Shown piece by piece: positions 2 to 8,194 of a stretch of DNA of 10,432 nucleotides. Under the pieces are notes generated by a model, which did not search any database, had not been told where the DNA came from, and worked only from the letters and a program-made list of their open reading frames with translations. The translations under genes were made by a program, and so were the position numbers. Where the stretch lies: positions 1-10,432 of the forward strand of contig DTXE01000214.1 in the NCBI GenBank assembly GCA_012962595.1. The letters are read 5' to 3'. This DNA comes from Syntrophaceae bacterium (lineage in GTDB: Bacteria > Desulfobacterota > DTXE01). Numbering within the stretch: the stretch's first letter is position 1; each line of letters opens with the position of its first letter.

Positions 2-598
2 CAGCAGAATTTCCCCATCCAAAGCCAGGCCACTGAACTCTTAGCCTTGCAGCATGTGATGAAGAAACTTAAAATGGGTGGCCGCTGTGGAATTGTGGTC
101 CCTGAGGGTATTCTTTTTAGAGGAGATGCCTTTGCCCAGGTCAAAAAGGAATTACTCGAAAACTATAATCTTCATACCATTGTGAGCTTGCCTTCTGGTG
201 TTTTTGCCAATGTCACCTCCTCTGGCCAGGGGCCAAAGACAAACCTTCTCTTTTTCGACCGAACAGGTCCTACAAAGGAAATCTGGTATTACGAACTTAC
301 CCCTCCACCCGGTGTAAAATACACCAAAGCCAGTCCTATTAAAGATGAACACCTTAGCGATGCTTATGAAAAATGGAAAACAAGGGCTGTTTCAGAAAAT
401 TCATGGATTGAGCCTGTGGAAAATATTGTTAAACGAGGCTATGACCTCACAGCAAAGAATCCTAATCGAATAGATAATTATGAACATCGTTCACCTGAAG
501 AGCTGGTAGCTGGTGTGCTTGCTAAAGAAAGGCGAATTACGAAGATTTTAGAAGAAGTTAAAACGTTGCTTGAATCTGAGAAAAGGAAGGAGGTTTAA
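2..598 (+). CDS. hsdM: Type I restriction-modification DNA methyltransferase subunit HsdM, C-terminal part (5' end outside window)
   Basis: HsdM is the adenine-N6 methyltransferase subunit of type I R-M complexes, working with the specificity subunit HsdS and, for cleavage, HsdR. The frame is open to the left edge, so the gene is partial: the SAM-binding and NPPF/Y catalytic motifs must lie upstream. What remains starts in the family block following that motif (NFPIQSQATELLALQHVMKK, then GGRCGIVVPEGILFRG). It continues through LPSGVFANVTSSGQGPKTNLLFF and ends in a charged C-terminal helix (LAKERRITKILEEVKTLLES) of the kind that contacts HsdS. An internal TTG at 47 is not the true start, because family similarity continues upstream of it. 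The TAA stop (596-598) lies inside the first unit of an 8-bp repeat array. A perfect Shine-Dalgarno, AAGGAGGT (587-594), overlaps the last codons. No hsdR is visible. The family call is secure; recognition sequence and activity cannot be judged. Confidence 0.93.
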   Translation, partial: QQNFPIQSQATELLALQHVMKKLKMGGRCGIVVPEGILFRGDAFAQVKKELLENYNLHTIVSLPSGVFANVTSSGQGPKTNLLFFDRTGPTKEIWYYELTPPPGVKYTKASPIKDEHLSDAYEKWKTRAVSENSWIEPVENIVKRGYDLTAKNPNRIDNYEHRSPEELVAGVLAKERRITKILEEVKTLLESEKRKEV

Positions 599-680
599 GG
601 GAAAGAAAGTTTAAGGGTTTAAGGGTGAAAGGGATAGGATATGGATAGTTCAAGGGTTGAAGAGTTTCAGAGTGAAAGGG
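594..680 (+). repeat. Left octamer array, consensus TTYAAGGG, flanking the S23 gene
   Basis: Units lie in an 8-bp register. TTTAAGGG occurs at 594-601, 610-617 and 618-625. AAAGAAAG is at 602-609 and TGAAAGGG at 626-633. After a 15-bp interruption containing the S23 start codon, the units TTCAAGGG (649-656), TTGAAGAG (657-664), TTTCAGAG (665-672) and TGAAAGGG (673-680) continue inside the coding sequence. The first unit contributes the hsdM stop codon. The right array at 1141-1188 carries the same motif in the opposite orientation. Confidence 0.88.
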
Positions 681-1147
681 AAAAGAAGATTGAAAGTTTT
701 GAGGATTTACATGTTTATCAGCGGGCGAGAGAGTTGACAAATGTTATCTATGGATTGACCCATAATGCTGACTTTGCTCGAGATTTCGGCCTCGTAGACC
801 AAATCCGCAGGGCCTCAGTTTCTATTATGTCTAACATCGCCGAAGGCTTTGAGCGAGGGACAAATGCTGAATTTATTCAGTTTCTCTTTATAGCCAAAGG
901 TTCTTGTGGAGAGGTACGTGCCCAGTCAACTATTTCCTATGATCAAAAGTATATTTCTCATGCGGATTACATCAACTTAGTAGATCGCTGCAGACGTATT
1001 AGTGGTATGCTGAGTAATCTAATAGGACACCTCAAGAGGTCTCCTTATCGTGGGGCTAAGTATAAGAAGCTACCTTATAAATCAATGGCGGATGAAATAA
1101 ATGAACTTCTCAAAGAAATCAATAAAGATTCAAAAAAGAACCCTTAA
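641..1147 (+). CDS. Four helix bundle protein, 23S rRNA-intervening-sequence (S23/IVP) family
   Basis: This 168-aa protein belongs to the small four-helix-bundle family first found inside intervening sequences of 23S rRNA; the accessory protein Avd of diversity-generating retroelements shares the fold. The family core begins near residue 18 (KIESFEDLHVYQRARELT). The signature QIRRASVSIMSNIAEGFERG follows at about 54-73, and then EFIQFLFIAKGSCGEVRAQ. The first ~16 residues (MDSSRVEEFQSEREKK) are encoded by degenerate octamer-repeat DNA, and the TAA stop (1145-1147) lies inside the first unit of the right-hand repeat array. The extra N-terminus therefore looks like a by-product of the repeats. 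The ATG at 641 follows a weak GGGATAGGA ribosome site. The gene sits between hsdM and hsdS on the same strand, which is not part of a standard hsd operon. No reverse transcriptase or rRNA is in the window. The molecular role of stand-alone members is unknown; nucleic-acid binding is only a family-level inference. Confidence 0.88.
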   Translation: MDSSRVEEFQSEREKKIESFEDLHVYQRARELTNVIYGLTHNADFARDFGLVDQIRRASVSIMSNIAEGFERGTNAEFIQFLFIAKGSCGEVRAQSTISYDQKYISHADYINLVDRCRRISGMLSNLIGHLKRSPYRGAKYKKLPYKSMADEINELLKEINKDSKKNP

Positions 1148-1188
1148 ACCCTTGAACTTTCACAACCTTGAACCCTTAAACTCTTGAA
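1141..1188 (-). repeat. Right octamer array, consensus CCCTTRAA (inverted copy of the left array)
   Basis: Six consecutive 8-bp units are in perfect register: CCCTTAAA (1141-1148), CCCTTGAA (1149-1156), CTTTCACA (1157-1164, degenerate), ACCTTGAA (1165-1172), CCCTTAAA (1173-1180) and CTCTTGAA (1181-1188). The reverse complement of 1141-1156 matches 610-625 at 15 of 16 positions, so the two arrays could base-pair in RNA or single-stranded DNA with the S23 gene in the loop. The first unit contains the S23 stop codon. The sixth contains an in-frame TTG (1184) that could be mistaken for the hsdS start. Confidence 0.88.
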
Positions 1189-1216
1189 CCTTAATGAATG
1201 TACGAGATATTTAGAT

Positions 1217-2365
1217 ATGAACTTCGATAATCTACCAAAAGGTTGGCAGGTAAAGCGGTTGGGGGAAGTTGCAAAAGTTTTTTCTGGTTCCTCTGCTCCG
1301 CAGGGAAGCCAATACTTTGAGAACGGTAAATATCCTTTTGTGAGGGTTCAAGACGTTGGGCTTTTTGGTCGGACTAAGAATCTGACAAACACCAAGGATA
1401 AAATTAATGACGAAGCGTTAAAGAAATTCCGATTAGTGCTTGCTAAGAAAGGCAGTATAGTTTTTCCAAAAAGTGGAGCTGCAATTCTTACCAACAACCG
1501 AGCGATGTTAGGGGTGGATGCATATGTGGTTGGACATTTAGCCATCATAGAGGCAGACGAAGAGCAAGTCTCAAAGGATTATCTGTATCACTGGCTTTGC
1601 AATTTTGATGTTGCCAGTTTTGTGAAAACCACATCGTTGCCTTCACTGCGCCTCTCTCTAATCAAAGAATTTGAAATCCCCTGCCCTCCCCTTCCCCAAC
1701 AACGCCGTATTGTGAGACGGATTGAGGAGCTAACCAGCCGTATTGAAGAAGCCAAAGGTTTACGCCTTGCCGCCCAAAAAGAAACCGAAGCCATTATGCC
1801 AGCGGCTTTACATGAGATCTTTGGGAAAGCTCAGTTAGAGTGGGAGTCAGTAGCTTTAGGTGAGACCATTAAACTAACAAGTGGGCGGTTCCTCCCTGCA
1901 AAACAGATGCAAGACGGCGGGCCGTATCCAGTATATGGTGGCAACGGAATTGTCGGATATCACACTCAATATTTATTCGAAGAGTCCAAAGTAATTATTG
2001 GTCGGGTAGGTGCAAAATGTGGTTGCGTTCACATCACTCAGTCAAAGTCATGGATTACTGACAATGCCCTCTATGTTACTGATAAACTGAAGGATATAGT
2101 TGATGAATATCTTGCGCTAGCTTTACGGCATCTCAATCTAAATCAATTTGCCAAGCAAGCTGCACAGCCCGTAATTTCCCAGAAACTAATCAAACCCTTG
2201 AAAATCCCACTCCCACCATCAGATGAACAACGCCGCATCGTGGCCTATCTTGACCGGCTACAGGCCAAAGTCGAGGAACTCCGCCGTTTGCAAGAAGAAA
2301 CTCAGAAGGAAATTGAGGCTATGAGAGCGGCAGTGTTGACAAAGGCTTTTGCGGGAGAATTATAA
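1217..2365 (+). CDS. hsdS: Type I restriction-modification specificity subunit HsdS
   Basis: HsdS is the DNA-recognition subunit of type I R-M. Its two target-recognition domains (TRDs) each read half of a bipartite site, and helical conserved regions set the spacing and dock two HsdM. From the ATG at 1217 the protein is 382 aa. TRD1 spans about 1-153, beginning at LPKGWQVKRLGEV as family members usually do. The first conserved helix region (PCPPLPQQRRIVRRIEELTS) lies near 156-175. TRD2 runs about 208-330 (WESVALGETIKLTSGRFLPA and YPVYGGNGIVGY). The second helix region (PLPPSDEQRRIVAYLDRLQA) lies near 331-350. The protein ends MRAAVLTKAFAGEL, so both halves are complete. An upstream in-frame TTG (1184) lies within repeat DNA and adds residues not expected in the family, so 1217 is preferred although its ribosome site is weak. 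The separation from hsdM by the S23 cassette may affect its translation. Confidence 0.92.
   Translation: MNFDNLPKGWQVKRLGEVAKVFSGSSAPQGSQYFENGKYPFVRVQDVGLFGRTKNLTNTKDKINDEALKKFRLVLAKKGSIVFPKSGAAILTNNRAMLGVDAYVVGHLAIIEADEEQVSKDYLYHWLCNFDVASFVKTTSLPSLRLSLIKEFEIPCPPLPQQRRIVRRIEELTSRIEEAKGLRLAAQKETEAIMPAALHEIFGKAQLEWESVALGETIKLTSGRFLPAKQMQDGGPYPVYGGNGIVGYHTQYLFEESKVIIGRVGAKCGCVHITQSKSWITDNALYVTDKLKDIVDEYLALALRHLNLNQFAKQAAQPVISQKLIKPLKIPLPPSDEQRRIVAYLDRLQAKVEELRRLQEETQKEIEAMRAAVLTKAFAGEL
1698..2242 (+). repeat. Short direct repeats within hsdS at the two conserved regions
   Basis: The segment at 1698-1714 (AACAACGCCGTATTGTG) matches 2226-2242 (AACAACGCCGCATCGTG) at 15 of 17 bases, including ten identical bases in a row. 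Both encode the QRRIV part of the conserved helix regions that follow TRD1 and TRD2. Such repeats reflect the internal duplication of HsdS, and in other systems they are where TRD swapping recombines. The feature here is the pair of repeats, not the DNA between them. Confidence 0.7.
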
Positions 2366-6138: not shown

Positions 6139-6609
6139 CTAACCTTTCTCCAAAACCCCTTTCACTGTAAGGACAATTTTGTCTGCTTTGATGTCCTCCA
6201 TCTTATAATATATTCCTCCTAAAGAGTCACAGATCTCTAGCATTTTACTGGAAGATGTAAGTCCACTTTCCGTATCTATTACTATGGACCTTATCCCAGA
6301 TAGTCTTATCCAGTGAGCTATTTCCTTAGCCTCTTCTAAGGCATTTCCTCCTATAATATTCAAGAGGGAAGGCAGCCAGAAACGACGCAAGTTGGAGTAC
6401 CAGAAGCGGGTTATACGCTGGGAATTGTCCAATGTTTGGTCTCCACCCATGGTTACATTAGCCTTCCCATCGGAGATGAGAACTAAAATAGGTTCCATAT
6501 GTGAATCTTTCCGTATACTATTGGTTAGCACAACATGAGCTAAGTACAGTCCCTTGGAAAGCGGTGTATTCCCACCAGTAGGCAGTTTCTCCAGGCTTTT
6601 TTCGGCCAA
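6139..6609 (-). CDS. Cobaltochelatase/Mg-chelatase-type subunit, C-terminal VWA fragment (frameshifted from upstream ORF)
   Basis: This frame holds the second half of a von Willebrand A domain and belongs with the ORF ending at 6617. Removing one base of the AA pair at 6621-6622 (TT on the coding strand) fuses them as ...[17 protein letters not shown], which is exactly how related chelatase subunits read. Visible motifs are LPTGGNTPLSKGL, which carries the MIDAS threonine, and LVLISDGKANVTMGG, which carries the MIDAS aspartate. The end, SIVIDTESGL, ICDSLGGIYYKME and KADKIVLTVKGVLEKG, is also typical. A stretch around TRFWYSNLRRFWLPSLLNIIG looks like an insertion relative to the short SDG-to-helix segment I expect. 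The nominal start (TTG 6609) has no ribosome site and is internal to the domain, so independent translation is unlikely. The stop is TAG at 6139-6141, convergent with recJ. Confidence 0.82.
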   Translation of the reverse strand: MAEKSLEKLPTGGNTPLSKGLYLAHVVLTNSIRKDSHMEPILVLISDGKANVTMGGDQTLDNSQRITRFWYSNLRRFWLPSLLNIIGGNALEEAKEIAHWIRLSGIRSIVIDTESGLTSSSKMLEICDSLGGIYYKMEDIKADKIVLTVKGVLEKG

Positions 6610-6616
6610 TTCTATA

Positions 6617-6633
6617 CTAGAAGGTTGGAGGAA
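6617..6633 (-). other. Frame-break site in the chelatase gene (+1 relative to upstream frame)
   Basis: The coding strand reads CCT CCA ACC TTC TAG in the upstream frame, while the downstream frame reads TCT AGT ATA GAA. The two frames are both open only over this window: the downstream frame has its own stop at 6634-6636. One extra T (either of the pair at 6621-6622) accounts for the break exactly. No CTT-TGA, CCC-T or other classic +1 slippery sequence, and no Shine-Dalgarno-like stimulator just upstream, is present. An A_AAA_AAG heptamer lies downstream, near 6599-6607, but beyond the stop and with the wrong shift direction. Confidence 0.85.
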
Positions 6634-8194
6634 CTAATAAACAGGCATCGCCCCGCCTAAAGGCTATCAGTCCAATTCTATCCCGTTTCTGATAGGCATC
6701 AATTAGCAAAGAGAAAATGGCACCTTTAGTCTCTATCATTCTTCTGTTGGCCCCCATGGAACCGCTAGCATCTACTACAAATAGAATAGTGTGGCCGATC
6801 TTTCTTTCCCTTAGTTTTCTTCGAATATCCGGAGGTTTAATTGCCAAGGCTAGGCCATCCTTTTCCCTGTACATCTGATACGGAGCTGCGGCCCTAATGG
6901 TTGCATCCAGTGCAACATCACATATTTTATCCTGGGGCATAATACTTCGCACATACTTTCCTGATCTATTCTGAACTTTTGCCCTGTCCCTTTTCCCAAA
7001 ACCTTTCTTGACACACCCATCCCTAGGGAAGGTCAATTCCCTTACTTGAAAAGGGGCTCCAGTCTCAAATATCGCATCAGAAGAAACCCTCCGGGTTACC
7101 TCCTTATCTCCATTATTAAGCCTCTCAGCCACGGTGTTTTGATCTTGGCTTTGATTTTTCTGCTCTTTGTCCTTTGTGCCACATTGTTCAATGGACTGTT
7201 CTATCTTTTTCAGATCCACCATAGGCTTGAACGGTCTTCTTCCCATACGATGACTGAGTACTAGCCTTGCAGCCTCTTTAATATCTATATCTTCAATCTC
7301 CGTCCGTTCATGATATGAGGCCAAAGTTTTTGCTACTTTAAGCATAAAGATGTCGGCTCGATGACCATCTACACCCATATTAGTGGCAATCCTGGTAACC
7401 AATTCCAATATCCTATCACTATATGTTACTTGAGGCAGTATCTCCTTTGCTTTCAGAATAGCATCCCTTAATAGATCCTGTTGTTTTTGCCACCTATTCT
7501 CAAAGGCATATGGATCTCTCTCAAATTCCATCCACCTATGAACTATCTCCATCCTTTGTGTTATCTCAGTAATTCCTTTAATCTCCACACAAAGTCCAAA
7601 TCTGTCCAAAAGCTGGGGTCTAAGTTCCCCTTCTTCTGGATTCATAGTGCCAATGAGGATAAAGCGTGCGGGGTGGGTGAAAGAAATCCCCTCTCTTTCC
7701 ACTATATTGACTCCCATGGCTGCAGCATCCAGAAGTACATCTACTATATGGTCATCGAGCAGATTTACCTCATCCACATATAAGATTCCACGATTAACCT
7801 CTGCTAATATACCAGGTTCGAAGACCTTATGGCCCTGTTTTATGGCACGCTCTATATCGAGCGTACCAATAACTCGATCTTCAGTAGCTCCCAAGGGCAG
7901 ATCTACTACATGTCTTCTTCTCCTGATTATAGGTAACTTTTCGCCTTTTGCCATTCTATTTCTGCATTCCTCACACATATTTTGGATATTGTAGGGATGG
8001 CAGTTAAATCTACAATCTTTTACCACCTCAATCTCGGGCAGTAGAAAGGCTAGTCCCCGTGCGGCAGTGGACTTGGCTGTCCCCTTTTCTCCCCGTATCA
8101 GAACACCTCCTAAATTGGGATTGATGGCATTAAGTATCAGGGCCTTTTTCATATCCTCCTGCCCGACAATGGCAGTAAAGGGAAAGACATTCAT
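6617..8194 (-). CDS. Cobaltochelatase/Mg-chelatase-type subunit, ChlI-like AAA+ plus start of ChlD-like VWA domain (frame broken)
   Basis: This fused medium subunit of CobN-type cobaltochelatases (ChlD-like; ATP-driven metal insertion into a tetrapyrrole) is 525 aa in this frame. The AAA+ part shows Walker [10 protein letters not shown] (35-43), Walker [11 protein letters not shown] (137-146), [20 protein letters not shown] (180-199) and the sensor region GVDGHRADI (274-282). A four-cysteine motif, C61-x3-C65-x8-C74-x2-C77, is typical of the cobaltochelatase-type branch rather than plain ChlI and could bind metal. A polar linker (~330-370) leads to the VWA MIDAS motif DASGSMG (475-481). The frame then stops at TAG (6617-6619) after VPPTF, in mid-domain. 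The ATG at 8194 has GGAG six bases upstream and lies 33 bp after hflC, so it is probably cotranscribed. The corrected length would be near 685 aa, normal for the family. No cobN or other cobalamin gene is in view. Confidence 0.88.

Follow-up and report, generated by a model that had tools for sequence, protein, structure and literature searches.

S23 genes between private inverted repeat arrays: a probable small fold-back mobile cassette in bacterial operons

Why should a small S23/IVP gene lie between hsdM and hsdS, enclosed by two arrays of the same 8-bp word in opposite orientations? The locus is found in a Syntrophaceae bacterium (GenBank assembly GCA_012962595.1, contig DTXE01000214.1), and the whole 10,432-nucleotide stretch that was analysed is referred to here as the window. 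S23/IVP genes are common and have so far been without explanation, as have the heptamer repeats of many bacterial genomes. The array frame joins the two, offers an origin for the intervening sequences (IVSs) of 23S rRNA, and predicts a mobile element with ends of no fixed sequence. It also accounts for odd annotations, such as proteins whose ends are encoded by an array, or the small genes that interrupt hsd, cas, suc, and nrd operons.

All three genes are on the plus strand, with S23 in the middle. The hsdM gene (2..598) is represented by its C-terminal part, recognised in the ORF list and by an N6_Mtase profile match and truncated by the contig end, while hsdS (1184..2365) has two Methylase_S matches; its likelier start is ATG 1217, as the listed TTG falls within an array. 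The S23 ORF (641..1147, plus strand; 168 aa) belongs to the four-helix-bundle family, scoring 123.2 bits against PF05635 (cut-off 33.8) and 117.4 bits against TIGR02436 (cut-off 24), and the one solved relative found by sequence is 2GSC, with five chains. The left arm (592..690, plus strand; inverted pairs I1-I6 and shuffles) is a degenerate TTYAAGGG-type 8-bp array that begins at the hsdM stop and continues into the coding sequence of S23, with exact units at 594, 610, 618, and 649. The right arm (1140..1192, minus strand; inverted pairs and shuffles) is its reverse complement, built of CCCTTRAA units that are exact at 1141, 1149, and 1173 and carry one mismatch at 1165 and 1181, and it extends from the S23 stop to just before hsdS. 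The preliminary description had both inverted arrays in strict 8-bp register. The inverted arrays themselves are confirmed, and so is the register for all five right-hand units; on the left it holds at 594, 610, and 618 and fails at 649, which is off register, the array being degenerate past 626. Positions 610-625 do pair with 1141-1156 at 15 of 16 positions. The repeats also reach into the coding sequences, as had been described for S23: the N-terminal residues from ATG 641 are array-encoded, the S23 stop (TAA 1145-1147) lies within the unit 1141-1148, and the hsdM stop (TAA 596-598) lies within the first unit, 594-601.

The complementarity of the two arms scores 25.5, whereas 2000 dinucleotide shuffles averaged 10.6 and never exceeded 19.5. 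Exact copies of a 16-bp double unit occur only at the two window arms in the whole 2.09-Mb assembly. Single octamers, with up to one mismatch, show no enrichment in the window (28 seen, 29.2 expected); the rarity is that of the arrangement, not of the single octamer. No transposase, relaxase or RT was seen in the cassette, and no RT was recognised by eye in the ORF list of the window.

Relatives of the hsdM gene (29-49% identity; 10 inspected among 30 loci fetched) provide a comparison for the insertion site. In four of the ten (L237, L241, L244, and L245), an hsdS-like ORF, named by reading its translation, overlaps the hsdM end with no insert, and the other six are ambiguous. None of the ten has a significant S23 match (best E 0.055, in L238). 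Because the hsdM/hsdS junction is tight in relatives, the window site is most likely an insertion. In L238, an S23-like ORF with a weak profile score lies at about 38-550 (gene orientation), directly upstream of hsdM.

The frame recurs around S23 genes generally. S23 is present in 110 of 198 genomes of the phylum and in none of 14 control genomes, E. coli among them. In our surveys, a locus with an arm score of at least 18 was counted as framed, while arms of at least 16 sufficed for inclusion in comparisons of units and arms. Thirty S23 loci of the phylum were taken, 29 of them with flanks long enough, and 25 of the 29 are framed; with the same scoring, none of 30 HEPN control genes of the phylum is. 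Across many phyla, 52 of 77 S23 loci reach 18, compared with 16 of 765 other ORFs of the same loci (Fisher p 3e-49). These loci were drawn by protein, as the 80 best among 585 confirmed matches, and 77 of the 80 could be scored. About a third of these S23 loci (25/77) fall below 18. The neighbour ORFs are mechanical and partly spurious, and three of the 16 high-scoring ones read as S23 themselves, so HEPN is the fairer control. On plasmids, all eight scored loci are framed (nine fetched, 30 records matched). In the pool of 158 distinct loci, which includes a few orthologous sites, the inverted score reaches 18 in 108 and the direct-repeat score in 29. Arrays are thus not equally common at unrelated genes; equal frequency would have undone the original proposal. 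Arms around any small gene can be dismissed on the HEPN result together with that for GIY-YIG genes (7 of 29 scored loci with inverted arms of at least 18; 30 given), and chance as the origin of the frame is excluded by the shuffles and the control families.

Several other readings gained no support in these surveys. For residence in 23S genes, a scan with five short motifs (up to three mismatches) yielded two single-motif matches, at L113 and L167, and nothing convincing as rRNA; the scan is restricted by flanks of only about 1.5 kb at many loci. Neighbouring DGRs were considered as a cause of weak arms: a motif search at 18 loci selected for low arm scores found none, and on re-scoring two of these loci reached at least 20. 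Frequent transfer across phyla was likewise unsupported, in a quick test on a poorly resolved S23 tree of 76 rows: the phylum labels are clustered, with 32 label changes where the least possible is 18 and the shuffled mean 48. S23 had no match among 50,697 phage records.

The TTYAAGGG octamer had been offered as a possible signal of the family, and here the proposal fails, since each element has its own unit, usually of 7 bp. Among 124 distinct loci with arms of at least 16 (of the 158), a lag of 7 fits best in 96, 8 in 18, 9 in seven, 6 in two, and 11 in one, and the window octamer is a minority form among S23 units. Self-match within S23 arrays is 0.52 at lag 7 and 0.48 at lag 14, against 0.24-0.32 at other lags. 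Arms were compared among 96 armed loci (of 120), giving 4539 cross-genome pairs. Below 60% protein identity, the similarity of upstream arms from different loci is at background (means 9.1-10.9); it rises to 13.6 at 60-70% identity (39 pairs) and to 22.5 above 70% (8 pairs), the last value being about 17.9 without the site-sharing L015/L020. Arm similarity follows protein identity weakly overall (rho 0.106), with none of 500 Mantel permutations reaching the observed value. Within a locus, the arm score averages 25.5 over the 96 loci, a mean inflated by the selection for scores of at least 16. Left and right arms therefore match within an element, while unrelated elements have no common unit.

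A reading with no special process would see in these arms degenerate short repeats, favoured by selection close to start and stop codons, in AT-rich or Shine-Dalgarno-rich DNA between genes. The left arms are richer in G than in C at 81 of the 96 loci and could supply Shine-Dalgarno sequences, and the unenriched single octamers of the window also speak for this reading. It is contradicted by the control families, since S23 and HEPN genes differ so sharply within one phylum, as well as by the self-match at lags 7 and 14 and by the shuffles, and we consider it very improbable.

The arms belong to the element, as dispersed copies within one genome retain them while their flanks are unshared. Copies with 68-89% protein identity and common units were found in L317/L318 and L286/L298, each pair separated by about 10 kb within a single contig, and in L311/L312/L313 on different contigs. 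In five S23-rich genomes, 32 of 42 distinct loci have arms of at least 16. The window genome contains five S23 matches with arm scores of 25.5 (the window), 22.5, 18.0 (partial), 15.5 (internal stop), and 13.5 (partial), each with a different unit as judged by eye. Broken copies are seen in genome G003, where all 14 S23 matches are short or interrupted: 10 contain stops, and four are in frames of 51-63 aa. In L022 and L024, the S23 3′ end and the adjoining array seem, by eye, to be partly tandem-duplicated downstream of S23. L189 and L193, about 94% identical, seem to differ by an inversion in place whose breakpoints fall in the arrays. This was demoted to a hint, because both are drafts, an N run lies beside one arm of L193, and an assembler can flip a segment that lies between inverted repeats.

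The state of related sites varies: some carry the element, some a decayed copy or an array alone, some a different element, and some no insert. Five genomes of one genus were compared by eye, with gene names taken by reading unless annotated. Between sucC and sucD, the element is intact in G147, decayed in G119, and reduced to about two units in G090; G016 has a geneless inverted array of another unit there, and G054 gave no match. Between kdtA and lpxK, G119 carries the element, G054 an S23 tail with the right array, G147 and G016 only a right-type array; in G090, the place is taken by a GIY-YIG gene accompanied by other repeats. A response-regulator site has one S23 gene in G016 and G090 and a second one, 39% identical to it and with a unit of its own, in G054. 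Among complete plasmids, S23 lies between cmr2 and cmr3 in Picosynechococcus PCC 7003 and is absent from PCC 7002 (92% identity), and it lies between nrdB and nrdA in Nostoc edaphicum, with none in Calothrix NIES-4105 (85%). Sites without S23, whose existence had been posed as a test, are thus found among the hsdM/hsdS relatives, the sites of this genus, and the plasmid records. Inspection by eye of the complete-plasmid comparisons revealed no target duplication; in L267/L274 and L271/L275, a few intergenic bases are replaced and not duplicated, in flanks that are only 92% and 85% identical, respectively. No insertion was caught between near-identical strains: in the 99%-identical pair, Anabaena 90 has S23 between cas6 and cas4, and Dolichospermum UHCC 0315A has a different fold-back sequence there and no clean site. 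That fold-back, at about 930-1160 of L273, has GTAGGTTGGGTTG ends. S23 genes were also observed within CRISPR-Cas operons of cyanobacterial plasmids in L267, L268, and L272.

Arrays also occur without S23. Eighty S23 loci contain 74 arrays, of which 41 fall in the S23 flank zones, where 4.8 would be expected from their 6.5% share of the sequence; the other 33 lie outside these zones. In genome G037 (1.6 of 2.54 Mb sampled), seven of 77 arrays are near S23 and 70 are not. Four of its S23 genes were scored and one reached 18, as did 12 of 1270 other ORFs. The 400 kb sampled from five genomes of the phylum that lack S23 contained one array. At 82 loci chosen for other genes (HEPN 30, GIY-YIG 30, and hsdM 22 of 30), the 187 kb from genomes with S23 contain five arrays (two at GIY-YIG loci) and the 73 kb from genomes without it none. 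Arrays are associated with S23 presence at a pooled p of 8e-8, or 0.008 without G037, in few genomes and uncorrected for phylogeny. As separate observations, G037 (L353-L432) has composite dispersed repeats made of several heptamer or octamer arrays (types GAAACGG, CCAATTC, AACGTGC, and GACTAAG) at many S23-free sites, and in Phormidium (L098, 5566-6453), inverted GGGAGTA-type arrays surround a 207-aa ORF that is unlike S23 by eye.

The same architecture is found around GxxExxY nuclease genes (PF13366; L118-L147), so S23 is not required for it. Inverted arms of at least 18 frame 19 of 28 scored loci (30 given; e.g., L138 and L146), and the unit lags at the 17 of 29 loci with arms are 9 in eight, 10 in five, and 8 in four. 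S23 is present in 58 of 71 genomes with GxxExxY and in 52 of 127 others. In L230 (G090, C112), the place where a congener has S23 is taken by a GIY-YIG gene with GTCATTGCGAG-type repeats.

These observations could be attributed to arrays that come first, heptamer arrays arising and spreading alone and serving as landing sites for S23, GxxExxY, and GIY-YIG genes. The many arrays away from S23, both in the S23 loci and in G037, speak for this, as does the kdtA-lpxK site, where members of one genus have a bare array, an S23 gene, the remnant of one, or a GIY-YIG gene. Against it, the S23-free sites of PCC 7002 and Calothrix NIES-4105 have no array by eye, dispersed S23 copies bring their own unit, the unit length tracks the gene family (mostly 7 for S23, 8-10 for GxxExxY), and the sampled S23-free genomes are nearly arrayless. 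We regard an origin of this kind as unlikely.

S23 lies mostly in the sense of its neighbours. Of 110 loci, 79 have both neighbours within 600 bases, and in these S23 is codirectional in 55, opposite to both sides in six, and mixed in 18 (55 vs 6, binomial p 5e-11; mechanical ORF-triple background 374 vs 108). Such a bias would suit an RNA-level element, in which the arms of the transcript pair and RNase III removes the S23 segment from the mRNA, as with 23S IVSs; selection in operons alone would suffice to explain it. In the Coxiella IVS, RNase III cuts a stem of 28 bp, and usually three tandem heptamers, variable in number among strains, lie directly before the S23 ORF (PMC4990558). The RNA of the window folds with its arms paired (z -3.05, 20 shuffles), as would any inverted repeat. 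Selection on an RNA stem would tolerate sense G.U over sense A.C, so an excess of G.U is expected among arm mismatches, and this signal is absent (sense G.U 165, sense A.C 185; 96 loci, p 0.31; cross-locus control fraction 0.495). The RNA-pairing role that the preliminary description had allowed the array thus gains no support from the mismatch test. The persistence of array-only sites and of elements antisense to both neighbours (the six loci above, and L271) is also at odds with excision from mRNA, which we judge quite unlikely.

Among the closest known systems are eukaryotic foldback (FB-type) elements such as Tetris and Tm1, whose inverted termini consist of short tandem repeats. The lag-7 structure and inverted arms of the S23 elements reproduce this organisation, in elements that differ in being bacterial, about 0.6 kb long, with one S23 gene and mostly 7-8-bp element-specific units. 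Terminal inverted repeats are shared with IS elements and MITEs; a terminal sequence conserved among family members is not, as arm similarity between S23 elements is at background below 60% protein identity. The REPs are palindromes of conserved sequence that a catalytic transposase recognises; S23 units, in contrast, are private tandem words. The STRR of cyanobacteria are tandem heptamers in intergenic DNA, and these and other heptamer repeats resemble S23 arrays in this respect, yet have been described without a link to S23. REP/RAYT itself is presented in PMC2817692 as a single-gene mobile module linked to short intergenic repeats. TAACTGA tandem heptamers are reported from Beggiatoaceae (PMC4679880), and GGGAATC sites in two Xanthomonas genomes are often convergent pairs (PMC4692102); neither text mentions S23 or four helix. 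Like the 23S rRNA IVSs of Leptospira and Coxiella, the window has complementary termini around its S23 ORF. Unlike those IVSs, which are in rRNA genes and excised by RNase III, it lies in a protein operon, at the hsdM-hsdS junction, with private tandem-array arms. The 23S rRNA IVSs are probably the rRNA-resident form of the cassette; earlier proposals, cited in PMC4990558, took them for remnants of transposition or mobile elements. In the literature searched, which mostly excludes subscription journals and preprints, we found no account of stand-alone S23 or GxxExxY genes framed by arrays.

On balance we favour, with some confidence, a fold-back DNA element: the window would be one member of a widespread group of small mobile cassettes with S23 between private inverted arrays. 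That many S23 relatives across bacteria have the same kind of frame with a different word each time suggests a common and unrecognised mobile cassette. The compact cassette of the preliminary description is strongly supported, and its mobility is the best inference. Several results count against it: no transposase, relaxase or RT in the cassette, no target duplication, and no insertion between near-identical strains; the third of S23 loci below 18 and the loci with high direct-repeat scores; the arrays of G037, far more numerous than its S23 genes; the GxxExxY genes of like architecture; and the clustered phylum labels, which lend no support to frequent transfer over long range. The gene and both arms would move as one DNA unit, and the arms might stay matched through recombination or copying between them, a route preferred because no RNA-pairing signature was seen. 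The S23 protein, for which no catalytic site is known, is presumably related to the DGR accessory protein Avd and, like it, pentameric and nucleic-acid-binding; it might bind the folded arms and recruit an enzyme from elsewhere. Solo arrays could be decay products or non-autonomous copies served in trans by S23. Fold-back behaviour would account for the layout of the cassette, for arrays that stand alone, and for the agreement between its two arms. More tentatively, S23 and GxxExxY proteins may define a class of prokaryotic mobile elements with sequence-free termini, in which the protein sets only unit length and inversion, the unit is rewritten with divergence and copied from arm to arm, and heptamer repeats and 23S IVSs are by-products; we hold this broader scheme to be possible, and doubtful in its full extent.

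Elsewhere in the window, two adjacent ORFs (6139-8194, minus strand) resemble, by reading, the halves of one AAA/VWA chelatase-like protein, and the split near 6610 looks like a pseudogene or a sequencing error.
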